From Bacteroidales bacterium (lineage in GTDB: Bacteria > Bacteroidota > Bacteroidia > Bacteroidales > Bacteroidaceae), in contig SUXO01000017.1 of the NCBI GenBank assembly GCA_015060885.1, positions 1 through 42,550 on the forward strand: DNA of 42,550 nt, in the 5' to 3' direction. Positions 1 to 39,284 of this stretch are shown one piece after another. The notes below the pieces were generated by a model, which worked only from the letters and a program-made list of their open reading frames with translations, made no database searches and was not told where the DNA came from. The position numbers and the translations under genes were made by a program. Within the stretch, counting starts at the first letter, position 1, and the number at the start of each line of letters is the position of its first letter.

Positions 1-139
1 GGGAGCATATACCTGTTCAAGACCAACAGACTGATGTTCACCAGCGGTTTCCCCAAACAGGCATCGCTCATAAACCGCCGGCCATACTACAAGGTGCGCA
101 ACATAAAGCCGTGGATTTTCACCACAAGAATAAAGATAG
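1..139 (+). repeat. Direct repeat, arm 1 (continues to the left of the window)
   Basis: Bases 1-139 match 1433-1571 with one visible mismatch (C120 versus T1552). Beyond base 139 the two copies diverge. The repeats bracket the acyltransferase gene 187-1191. Confidence 0.9.
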
Positions 140-36358: not shown

Positions 36359-37735
36359 TTACTCTTTGACAGCCGAATCCTCGCAAAGGGAGTTTCCAAG
36401 ATTTTTCTCAATCTCCTCGTCACTTATCGAGTAGTTGTTAAGGCTGCCCGATATATACTGGTCATAAGCTGTCATATCCATAAGACCGTGACCCGACAAG
36501 CAGAAAAGGATAACCTTCTCCTCGCCAGTCTCCTTGCACTTTTCGGCCTCGGCTATTGTAGCTGCAATGGCGTGGCACGACTCCGGTGCGGGCACAATAC
36601 CCTCGGCCTTTGCAAAGAGAAGGCCGGCTTTGAAGGAGTCGAGCTGGCTTATGTCGGCAGCCTCCATTAGGCCATCCTTCAACAACTGCGACACAATGAC
36701 ACCCGCACCGTGATAACGCAAGCCACCGGCGTGTATGTTGGCAGGCTTGAAGTTATGGCCGAGCGAGAACATCGGCATCAAGGGGGTGTAGCCTGTTTCA
36801 TCGCCAAAATCGTAGCAGAAACGGCCACGCGACAGTTTGGGGCACGATTCGGGCTCGGCAGCAACGAAACGGGTATTCTTGGTACCCTTTATGTTGTGGC
36901 GCATAAAGGGGAATGCGATTCCCGAGAAATTGGAGCCTCCGCCAAAGCAGCCGATGACAATGTCGGGGTACTCCCCAGCCATCTCCATCTGCTTTTCGGC
37001 TTCAAGGCCTATGATTGTCTGGTGCAGACTCACGTGGCTCATTACCGAGCCAAGAGCATACTTGCAGTTGGGTGTAGTGCGTGCAAGTTCCACAGCCTCG
37101 CTTATCGCTGTTCCCAACGAGCCCTGGTGATTGGGGTTCACTGTTATTATATCCTTGCCCGCACGGGTTGACATAGAGGGCGAAGGGGTAACCTGCGCGC
37201 CGAATGTCTGCATAACACTGCGGCGATAGGGTTTCTGCTCGTAGCTCAGCTTCACCTGATACACGGCGCACTCCAAGCCGAATACCTTTGTGGCATAAGA
37301 GAGGGCTGCACCCCACTGCCCCGCACCGGTCTCGGTGGTAACGTTTGTGGTGCCCTCTATCTTGCAGTAATAGGCCTGCGGCAGTGCCGAGTTGAGTTTG
37401 TGGGAACCTATGGGGCTCACACTCTCGTTCTTGAAGTATATGTGAGCAGGTGTGCCGAGTGCCTTTTCAAGACCATAGGCACGCACAAGAGGTGTGGAAC
37501 GGTAGTAACGGTACATCTCCTGCACGGGTTCGGGAATGTCAATCCACGCATCGGTGAAGTTCAGTTCCTGGCGTGCCGACTCGGCCGACAACAATTTAGA
37601 CAACTCCTCAACCGTAATGGGCTTGCGTGTCTTCGGGTCGAGCATGGGAGCAGGCTTGTTCACCATTTCGGCCTGGATATTATACCACTGTGTGGGTATC
37701 TCGTTTTCTTGAAGGAAATAACGTTTCTGTTTCAT
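36359..37735 (-). CDS. trpB: Tryptophan synthase beta chain, TrpB2 type
   Basis: A 458-residue PLP enzyme that condenses indole and L-serine to tryptophan. SVSPIGSHKLNSAL contains the PLP Schiff-base lysine K113, TTETGAGQWGAALSY follows, and GCFGGGSNFSGIAFP is the phosphate-binding loop. The N-terminal extension QKRYFLQENEIPTQWYNIQA and the extra length over TrpB1 (about 400 residues) mark it as TrpB2, which usually lacks a trpA partner, and none is adjacent. Transcription starts about 180 nt upstream and passes through a tryptophan attenuator, direct evidence that the cell treats it as a tryptophan-biosynthetic gene. The family is also annotated as 'TrpB-like PLP-dependent enzyme'. Confidence 0.95.
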   Translation of the reverse strand: MKQKRYFLQENEIPTQWYNIQAEMVNKPAPMLDPKTRKPITVEELSKLLSAESARQELNFTDAWIDIPEPVQEMYRYYRSTPLVRAYGLEKALGTPAHIYFKNESVSPIGSHKLNSALPQAYYCKIEGTTNVTTETGAGQWGAALSYATKVFGLECAVYQVKLSYEQKPYRRSVMQTFGAQVTPSPSMSTRAGKDIITVNPNHQGSLGTAISEAVELARTTPNCKYALGSVMSHVSLHQTIIGLEAEKQMEMAGEYPDIVIGCFGGGSNFSGIAFPFMRHNIKGTKNTRFVAAEPESCPKLSRGRFCYDFGDETGYTPLMPMFSLGHNFKPANIHAGGLRYHGAGVIVSQLLKDGLMEAADISQLDSFKAGLLFAKAEGIVPAPESCHAIAATIAEAEKCKETGEEKVILFCLSGHGLMDMTAYDQYISGSLNNYSISDEEIEKNLGNSLCEDSAVKE

Positions 37736-37769
37736 CGATATATATGATTTTATTTAAGTCACAATAAAA

Positions 37770-37793
37770 AAACCGGCCTTTGCGGGACCGGCT
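37770..37793 (-). terminator. Attenuator terminator of the trpB2 leader (arms 3 and 4)
   Basis: On the minus strand AAGCCGGTC pairs with GGCCGGTTT around CCGCAAA, followed by a run of T's ending at 37764. It lies 35 nt ahead of ATG 37735. Arm 3 can instead pair with the upstream antiterminator segment at 37837-37844. Confidence 0.88.
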
Positions 37794-37831
37794 TGTTCTG
37801 TTATTATAGCTGCACATTGAATGACATATAT

Positions 37832-37869
37832 GCGGCAACCGATCGCGAGTTTATCCCGAGATGCGCCAC
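37832..37869 (-). promoter_or_regulatory. trp attenuator arms 1 and 2 (antiterminator)
   Basis: Minus strand: GATCGGTT (37844-37837) can pair over eight positions with AGCCGGTC (37793-37786, the left arm of the terminator), forming an antiterminator. GCCGC (37836-37832) can pair with GTGGC (37869-37865), which overlaps the Trp codons, forming the alternative 1:2 hairpin. This is the classic three-way switch, worked out by hand. Confidence 0.72.
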
Positions 37870-37898
37870 CACCAATATCTGTTCATTGCATTTGCCAT
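37851..37898 (-). CDS. trp leader peptide with three consecutive Trp codons
   Basis: The frame from ATG 37898 to TAA 37851-37853 reads MANAMNRYWWWRISG (15 residues); an inner start at ATG 37886 would give MNRYWWWRISG. Three TGG codons stand in a row at 37874-37866, preceded by a Tyr codon. The ORF begins about 20 nt after the expected transcription start and ends 58 nt before the terminator hairpin. Ribosome stalling at the Trp codons when charged tRNA-Trp is scarce would cover arm 1, free arm 2 to pair with arm 3, and let transcription continue into trpB2. The peptide itself probably has no other function. Confidence 0.85.
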   Translation of the reverse strand: MANAMNRYWWWRISG

Positions 37899-37923
37899 AT
37901 TCAATATTCTTTCTTTATGGTTG

Positions 37924-37954
37924 CGAAGATATATATATTTTTTATCCCTGCAAA
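37924..37954 (-). promoter_or_regulatory. Promoter of the trpB2 leader
   Basis: Minus strand: TTTG (37954-37951), 19 bp, TATCTTCG (37931-37924), the Bacteroidales consensus. Transcription would begin near 37917, so the leader before trpB2 is about 180 nt. Confidence 0.8.
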
Positions 37955-38097: not shown

Positions 38098-38164
38098 GGA
38101 ACTATGTAATAAAAAAGACAAAAGAACAGAAGATGATGTAGGGGCGCACCGGTCTGCCCCTACG

Positions 38165-38400
38165 GGAAAAAAAACAATAAGACACAAAAACAGAAAGACA
38201 AAACAAATGTAGGGGCGCACCGATGTGTGCGCCCGAAAACACACAGGCAAAGAAATATCGGGCAGACACATCGGCTGCCACTGCGGAAAAAAAACAATAA
38301 GACACAAGAACAGAAAGACAAAACAAATGTAGGGGCGCACCGGTGCGTGCGCCCAACAAATGCACAGGCAAAGAAACAACAACAAGAACAACTGTCCCTC
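38165..38400 (+). repeat. Tandem 120-bp repeat with GC-rich hairpins
   Basis: Two copies start at 38165 and 38285, exactly 120 bp apart. Each has an A-rich stretch (AACAATAAGACACAA then CAGAAAGACAAAAC), then TGTAGGGGCGCACC leading into a hairpin with GGGCGCAC / GTGCGCCC-type arms (38213-38234 and 38333-38354), then CACAGGCAAAGAAA. A third, partial relative lies upstream at 38118-38163. Confidence 0.8.
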
Positions 38401-38582: not shown

Positions 38583-39284
38583 CTATTCAAAATAGAGCGA
38601 GAGCACTATCATCTTGGAAACCACCTTGTCGACCGAATGTGTGAACTTCAAATAATTCTCGTCGAGCAGGTCCTTGCGGTCCTTTTCGAGCACATCGGTG
38701 AGGCTGAACGCGAATTTAAGTTCGGGTATCAGCTTGAAGAAGGGAAGATAGAAGTCGCAACCCATACCCACTTCGACCATACAGTCGAATTTCTTGAAGA
38801 GGATGGGACGCTGCTTCTTCACCGTGAGGTTCATCATAGGGGCAATACCGGCTGTTATGTAGGGGCGGTAGTTGTTGAAACGCTCGGCCGCAAACTTGAC
38901 GTGCAAGGGGAAGGCCAAATAGGTAGTCTTCACCTGCTGGCTCTCGCGCAGGTCACTCGCGGTATCGCGGAATTTTATCGTGTTCTGCCCAAAATGCAGG
39001 GTGGGCAGCAGTCGCAACGAAAAATGGTTGCTCAAACGCAGGTCGGCAAGCACACCCACAGTGAAACCGGGGTTATAAGAGGCAATGTCGGCAACCCACT
39101 GCTCGCCGTTGGCTGTAACAAAGCCGTTGTTGGTAAACTCCATATCCTGCATATGCACGCCCACAAAGAAACCATAATGCAAGCGACGGTAGTCGATGTA
39201 GGGCTTGTTCTGCACCTTGCGCTCCTGGGCAAAAAGCGACACAGGAAGCAACAATAACATTATTATATATAGGTATCTCTTCAT
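38583..39284 (-). CDS. porT: PorT-like outer-membrane protein (type IX secretion / gliding)
   Basis: A 233-residue beta-barrel outer-membrane protein. The signal peptide MKRYLYIIMLLLLPVSLFAQ is followed by KVQNKPYIDYRRLHYGFFVG, the segment typical of PorT. Alternating barrel strands follow, including FTVGVLADLRLSNHFSLRLL and YLAFPLHVKFAAERFNNYRP, ending VLSLYFE. PorT is needed for type IX secretion in Porphyromonas and has orthologues across Bacteroidales. The frame is open upstream to 39434, but ATG 39284 starts the signal peptide and lies 41 nt after a strong promoter -7 element, so the longer form is rejected. It is transcribed alone. Confidence 0.82.
   Translation of the reverse strand: MKRYLYIIMLLLLPVSLFAQERKVQNKPYIDYRRLHYGFFVGVHMQDMEFTNNGFVTANGEQWVADIASYNPGFTVGVLADLRLSNHFSLRLLPTLHFGQNTIKFRDTASDLRESQQVKTTYLAFPLHVKFAAERFNNYRPYITAGIAPMMNLTVKKQRPILFKKFDCMVEVGMGCDFYLPFFKLIPELKFAFSLTDVLEKDRKDLLDENYLKFTHSVDKVVSKMIVLSLYFE

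Follow-up and report, generated by a model that had tools for sequence, protein, structure and literature searches.

A predicted tryptophan attenuator upstream of an orphan trpB2 gene in a genus of Bacteroidales

The orphan trpB2 gene on the minus strand of a 42,550-nucleotide stretch of a Bacteroidales contig (SUXO01000017.1; the whole stretch is here called the window) is preceded by a leader that very probably acts as a ribosome-mediated attenuator, making transcription of trpB2 depend on how far tRNA-Trp is charged, with TrpB2 serving to salvage indole. Sequence and computation bring out the anatomy of this leader, its conservation among relatives, the covariation of its helices, a folding switch and, throughout the genus, no match to trpA or trpC. 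The mechanism itself is already known; what is novel, as far as the literature was searched, is its orphan trpB2 target, and the portions of the open-licence literature consulted yielded no attenuator tied to an orphan trpB2 in Bacteroidota. Also new is that throughout the genus the leader is tied to a single orphan trpB in each genome, as is the weight added to an indole-salvage role.

The elements that an earlier note had read from the letters of this DNA, namely a promoter (TTTG-19-TATCTTCG), a 15-codon leader ORF with three TGG codons, the pairing arms and a terminator, are all present on the minus strand (Table 1). The promoter was named after a consensus that we take to be that of Bacteroidota, and an A-rich stretch lies between its TATCTTCG element and the leader ORF, the start of which is backed by relatives, e.g., MASNVNRYWWWRIPGKHS (L015) and MTSNVNRYWWWRLSRKHS (L017). 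In the MFE fold, hairpin 1:2 (at about 37832-37872) overlaps the Trp codons, and the leader stop codon lies outside arm 2. The dual pairing ascribed to arm 2, with either arm 1 or arm 3, is borne out by a duplex of -13.0 kcal/mol computed between arm 2 and the 5' arm of the terminator, a pairing that in the window is shifted to GAUCGGUU with AGCCGGUC. The terminator stands before trpB2 as proposed, but the distance from the end of the T-run (37766) to the trpB2 ATG (37735) is 30 nt, rather than the proposed 35 nt or so.

Table 1. Features of the trpB2 leader and its surroundings in the window.
Feature	Positions	Strand	Basis
Promoter, Bacteroidota type: TTTG (37951-37954), 19 nt, TATCTTCG (37924-37931)	37924..37954	-	sequence
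Leader ORF, 15 codons, MANAMNRYWWWRISG-stop	37851..37898	-	sequence and relatives
Three adjacent Trp (TGG) codons, putative sensing codons	37866..37874	-	sole TGGTGGTGG match in the window
Arm 1, partner of arm 2, overlapping the Trp codons	37855..37872	-	MFE fold
Arm 2 (GATCGGTT...), pairs with arm 1 or arm 3	37832..37849	-	fold and duplex
Arm 3, partner of arm 2 (antiterminator) or of arm 4	37783..37793	-	duplex computation
Intrinsic terminator formed by arms 3 and 4: hairpin 37770-37794, then T-run to 37766	37766..37794	-	-11.5 kcal/mol
trpB2, 458 aa, predicted regulated gene	36359..37735	-	NF009057, TIGR01415
porT/sprT-like gene, conserved upstream neighbour, outside the switch	38583..39284	-	NF052311

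When set against shuffled sequences, the whole-leader fold of the window reaches z = -1.78, with 9 of 200 shuffles equally good, and its arm 2:3 duplex is equalled by 10% of arm-2 shuffles and ranks 20th of 52 among arm swaps. The single TGGTGGTGG match compares with 0.30 expected, at least one match arising in 26 of 100 shuffles. None of 10 shuffles of the window terminator gave an equally stable hairpin before the T's; such a hairpin is found in all 52 leaders collected, and none of 520 shuffles (10 per leader) is as stable. Short ORFs with adjacent Trp codons lie at most 260 nt upstream of 8 of 439 other ORFs, and one of these eight is itself a trpB2 leader. Judged in this way, the window sequence alone would not be quite enough, and conservation in relatives settles the reality of the leader.

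Within the window's genus, a genome search found trpB in 22 of 44 genomes. The leader ORF and terminator were found on 16 of the 22 full-length trpB2 loci, and every one of the 22 leaders of the genus contains a run of two or three Trp codons. Relatives keep both the TGG run and the alternative pairing, the latter with compensatory changes (see below), so that the lack of conservation named in the earlier note as a refutation was not seen. A promoter of the pattern TTG-17..23-TAnnTT[TC]G, which was written after the window had been seen, lies upstream of 21/22 genus leaders vs. 26/1100 shuffled stretches, a conservation that bears, at the level of sequence, on a transcription start upstream of the leader ORF. 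A coding end resembling the C terminus of porT was found upstream of the leader in 15 of the 16 leadered trpB2 loci, and in 14 of those 15 it lies 92-145 nt from the Trp codons, whereas the distance in the window is 708 nt. Repeated TAGGGGCGCACCG-type elements (38130-38400) occupy part of this longer spacer, between porT and the leader, and, given the difference in distance, look like an insertion in the window's lineage.

The leader is absent from six of the 22 trpB2 loci (L008, L012, L014, L018, L019 and L027). An orphan trpB1 is kept in five genomes with a leaderless trpB2 (G035, G002, G028, G033 and G001); in the sixth genome with an orphan trpB1 (G013), trpB2 (L026) is cut by a contig end and its upstream region is out of view. 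All six orphan trpB1 genes of the genus carry the leader. Five of their six proteins exceed the TIGR00263 cut-off of 392, and the remaining one (L033), cut by a contig end, scores 343. In G025, a leaderless trpB2 is accompanied by a second trpB2 with a leader (L006). Across the genus, one leadered trpB was found in each trpB-bearing genome (22/22, among 44 genomes), and the genomes with a trpB1 leader form one side of a branch of the rpoB tree (100/100; 29 of the 44 genomes). In two loci (L031 and L032), genes read by eye as subunits of indolepyruvate ferredoxin oxidoreductase adjoin the orphan trpB1.

The product of the window gene scores 682.8 bits with NF009057, whose cut-off is 366, and 576.5 bits with TIGR01415, whose cut-off is 518.85, and is thereby a TrpB2. 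Neither trpA (PF00290) nor trpC (PF00218) has a match in any of the 44 genus genomes, the controls being positive in 14 of 14; the window genome is 88.5% complete, and the absence of both genes is genus-wide. Because NF009057 also matches the TrpB1 of relatives and has a single match in the window genome, no second TrpB was found there. Three other PALP matches exist in this genome, in which trpB2 is the only tryptophan-forming step found, and on the evidence of its sequences the genus appears unable to make tryptophan from scratch. The scanned neighbours of the window trpB2 are not trp genes, which makes it a candidate TrpB2_o, the type of TrpB2 encoded outside operons. Orphan trpB2 genes have had no agreed role so far, as is said of P. 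horikoshii, which keeps trpB2_o after losing all other trp genes and in which its function was not identified (PMC1854888). The same source names an insertion of 2-6 residues in non-operon TrpB2 proteins; the sections of it drawn on here name no regulation of trpB2_o, whereas the window gene, likewise an orphan trpB2, is under predicted Trp-responsive control. As to the second substrate, serine and O-phosphoserine are both possible, since TrpB2 enzymes are cited as O-phospho-L-serine dependent (PMC11917138).

Substrate specificity is unreadable here from sequence, and it is conceivable, although unlikely, that the attenuator is real while TrpB2 catalyses some other PLP reaction, to which control by tryptophan is simply of advantage. 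However, the solved chains closest to the window TrpB2 are tryptophan synthase beta chains (6hul, 4qys and 6hte), and the fact that a second clade of the genus has the leader on its orphan trpB1 suggests that both genes fill one role. Also against such a reaction, the TrpB2 of B. thetaiotaomicron (BT_RS23500) benefits an E. coli trpA deletion only when spotted beside the wild type, which was read by the authors as use of secreted indole (PMC11535334). With this complementation, which points to indole, and with trpA and trpC found in none of the 44 genomes, the salvage reading put forward in the earlier note gains weight.

Covariance model R2, built from 25 leaders of which none is a genus trpB2 leader, detects the leader of the window with a score of 39.1 bits (E 3.2e-7). 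This score is not decisive by itself, since the one strong false positive in 80 further loci (680,783 bases), a match downstream of trpB2 in L141, reached 38.1 bits. R2 finds 15 of the 16 genus trpB2 leaders, including that of the window, reaches L020 only at E 0.12, and finds nothing on the six leaderless genus trpB2 loci. Run over the 44 genomes, model R1 gave 21 strong matches, all of them trpB leaders and 20 of them members of the model, followed by a gap down to 29 bits; the L020 leader is not among the matches. Other genes under the R1 leader were considered and rejected, as none of the nine loci examined among the weaker matches (L212-L220) has a Trp-run ORF at the match.

At Rfam gathering scores only a tRNA is found in the window, and the leader shows only below the cut-offs. 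Its best sub-threshold match is RF00513 (Trp_leader), at 25.8 bits and E 0.0033, with a full-length alignment (1-100 at window 37764-37877); being below the gathering cut-off of 41, the window leader is not assigned to this family. The two have in common a leader ORF with a Trp run, alternative helices and a terminator, and differ in phylum and in target, which in the window is an orphan trpB2 and not a trp operon. RF01692 (Bacteroid-trp) gives no match in the window up to E 10, so that the window leader, which fails the cut-off of 49 bits, is not assigned to it either, and of the 15 other genus leaders the only two among the matches listed score 40.9 and 39.5 bits. The trp-operon leaders L175 (B. 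nordii) and L176 (B. cellulosilyticus) match RF01692 at 109.7 and 99.6 bits, respectively, and the cut-off is unreached in the other 12 operon stretches searched (one of them leaderless; L188-L190 lay outside this search). Bacteroid-trp was described in Bacteroidetes (Weinberg et al., 2010; PMC2864571), which qualifies the statement in the earlier note that attenuation of trp operons is classic in Proteobacteria: it is not only proteobacterial. Like the window leader, Bacteroid-trp is a trp leader of Bacteroidetes with the same arrangement of arms, but its target is the trp operon rather than an orphan trpB2. In Corynebacterium diphtheriae, attenuators were predicted before trpB1EDGC and trpB2A (PMC1262725), and there, as in the window, an attenuator precedes a second trpB gene; that trpB2 is followed by trpA, whereas the window trpB2 stands alone, in a genus in which no trpA was found. 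Signs of leader peptides before amino acid operons were also reported in Flavobacterium (PMC9723704).

Pairing was followed in three alignments. Of the 52 leaders, A3 comprises 39 and A4 comprises 25, after removal of 13 that were divergent or nearly duplicates; A1 comprises 15 of the 16 genus trpB2 leaders (L020 was dropped). In the arm 1:2 core, 96.8% of cells are paired across 39 leaders, one pair being C-G in 26 and U-A in 13, and the covariation score is 0.384 vs. 0.248 in shuffles (0/500); both-side changes are found at 2 pairs, which 310/500 shuffles reach, and pair types are no higher than in shuffles (499/500 reach). For arm 2:3, measured on the 25 leaders that do not belong to the genus trpB2 class, 94.4% of cells are paired over 8 pairs, 4 of which show both-side changes (10/500 shuffles reach), and covariation is 0.280 vs. 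0.227 in shuffles (0/500), with pair types again no higher than in shuffles (326/500 reach). In the same 25 leaders, the 3:4 terminator is 96.9% paired, and 9 of its 13 pairs have changed on both sides; 0/500 shuffles reach it on every measure. The arm-swap test takes in all 52 leaders and ignores shared ancestry: the duplex of each leader's own arm 2 with its own arm 3 averages -17.65 kcal/mol, vs. -14.16 kcal/mol (sd 0.41) when arms are permuted, and 0/20000 permutations are as low. Permutations within classes, which likewise ignore shared ancestry, are as low in 86/20000 cases for genus trpB2, 0/20000 for other trpB2, 5/20000 for trp operons and 1161/20000 for orphan trpB1, the last of which is not significant.

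Within the genus trpB2 class, five 2:3 pairs are nearly fixed in 14 of the 15 leaders of A1, and the window is the exception: at A1 columns 34:102 a U-A pair has become C-G, and two neighbouring conserved 2:3 pairs are lost. These two losses, and a 2:3 duplex that is among the weaker ones, would suit a leader that is a relic of a lost trp operon, carried along and no longer working, as would the close resemblance of the genus orphan trpB1 leaders to trp-operon leaders of Bacteroides. However, the change at columns 34:102 is a paired one, the arms match each other within the genus trpB2 class, the promoter is kept in 21 of 22 genus leaders, and none of the 22 has lost the leader ORF, the Trp run or the terminator, all of which argues for a working attenuator and makes a relic very unlikely.

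The switch between the two pairings was followed by folding, on the assumption of a ribosome footprint that reaches 12 nt, counted from where the A-site codon starts. As long as arm 4 has yet to be transcribed, the expected number of 2:3 pairs in the window is 0.0 if no ribosome is present, 9.7 if one sits on the third Trp codon (0/40 shuffles match) and 4.4 if one is at the stop codon, which lies outside arm 2; the last of these values counts against the attenuator reading. Over 22 leaders, a ribosome on the last Trp codon yields a mean gain of 12.1 2:3 pairs, compared with a mean of 3.4 (sd 0.7, largest 4.9) in shuffled sets (n = 40); L007 shows no switch above shuffles (22/40 as high). When the full-length leader is folded at equilibrium, the terminator prevails in the window whichever of the three ribosome states is assumed, and likewise in nearly all leaders, L013 and L136 being exceptions with a stalled ribosome. 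The switch must therefore be kinetic, decided while RNA polymerase moves, as it is in known attenuators.

The direction of regulation, the sensing of tRNA-Trp, the substrates, the source of indole and the physiological role are inferred. With enough charged tRNA-Trp, the ribosome would pass the three Trp codons and reach the stop codon; arm 2 would then either be covered or form its helix with arm 1, the 3:4 terminator would form, and transcription would halt before trpB2. If charged tRNA-Trp is short, the ribosome would stall on the Trp codons and cover arm 1, leaving arm 2 to pair with arm 3 as the latter emerges; the terminator would not form in time, and trpB2 would be made. TrpB2 would then make tryptophan from external indole and serine (or O-phosphoserine). 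Both this type of control and tnaC-type systems use a leader ORF with Trp codons, but control of the latter kind, in which free tryptophan switches the gene on or Rho rather than a hairpin ends transcription, is extremely unlikely here, given that the Trp codons are adjacent (two or three), that an intrinsic terminator is found in each of the 52 leaders, and that the three-helix logic fits starvation-induced readthrough.

Outside the genus, trpB2 leaders are patchy. The 80 relative loci include six of the window's genus (L065-L070), and among the other 74, counted as outside, 11 trpB2 loci carry a Trp-run leader; a family search (251 genomes, 30 loci read) added three further leadered trpB2. 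Upstream of trpB2 in L128 and L142, the leader is a variant that has four Trp codons (WWQSEWCTVRWRGVA) and whose arms differ, and two records titled Bacillota and Roseburia (L110 and L118) bear a trpB2 of Bacteroidales type, wrong bins or names being likely. On trp operons, the leader precedes trpB1 in 16 of 17 relatives' operons (20 stretches from 25 trpA-bearing genomes, with L178, L185 and L186, in which no trpB1 was shown, uncounted); in L183, the 400 nt preceding a trpB1 close to trpA contain no Trp-run leader. Both the operon trpB1 and trpB2 carry leaders in four genomes (G282, G283, G284 and G289). Within the genus no trpA was found (0/44 genomes); outside it, four genomes with a leadered trpB2 have trpA. 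A link between the trpB2 leader and trpA loss across Bacteroidales was rejected, trpA being present in 4/11 leadered vs. 21/39 leaderless cases in a comparison that covers 50 of the 80 relative loci, and outside the genus there was no signal on independent pairs (only 6 pairs). A single origin of the trpB2 leader was also rejected, with 10 changes on a quick tree of 121 rows (p-AU 6.9e-73), from which L048 (a bad long row) was left out and L140 (a 168-residue frame only) was skipped.

Matches to NF009709 in the 44 genus genomes fall into two score bands. The 675-682 bit band comprises 12 genomes, none with a trpB match, and the two members scanned (L221 and L229) exceed the TnaA cut-off NF053783. 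The 557-575 bit band comprises 18 genomes, all with trpB, and the three members scanned (L225-L227) reach neither the tryptophanase nor the tyrosine phenol-lyase equivalog cut-off; they encode a divergent enzyme of the tryptophanase/tyrosine phenol-lyase family (L225 1034-2485, L226 1068-2519 and L227 1019-2467). The window genome is in neither band, and G004, which has a partial match (280.6 bits) and no trpB, was left out of both. The separation of tryptophanase from trpB is real in counts but is not independent evidence, since it amounts to about one event on the rpoB tree (29/44 genomes). In G016 (L231), rpoB groups with the trpB-less genomes and trpB2 groups with G023; G016 is possibly a mixed bin.

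It is possible, and we put it forward tentatively, that the leader is a regulatory cassette marking whichever trpB is the cell's last tryptophan route, an indole-salvage switch that would fire only in starvation, and that a neighbouring clade, which appears to have swapped trpB for tryptophanase, makes indole. On that tentative reading, the cassette would sit on the trp operon where there is one, on an orphan trpB1 in one clade of the genus and on an orphan trpB2 in its other clades, and would have been gained and lost many times on the TrpB2 tree. Indole producer and consumer lineages may thus exist within the genus.

If confirmed, control by tRNA-Trp would imply that the cell needs TrpB2 when tryptophan is short, and the idea of indole salvage would become directly testable in gut Bacteroidales. 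The suggested presence of indole-producing and indole-consuming species within one genus would also bear on indole levels in the gut.
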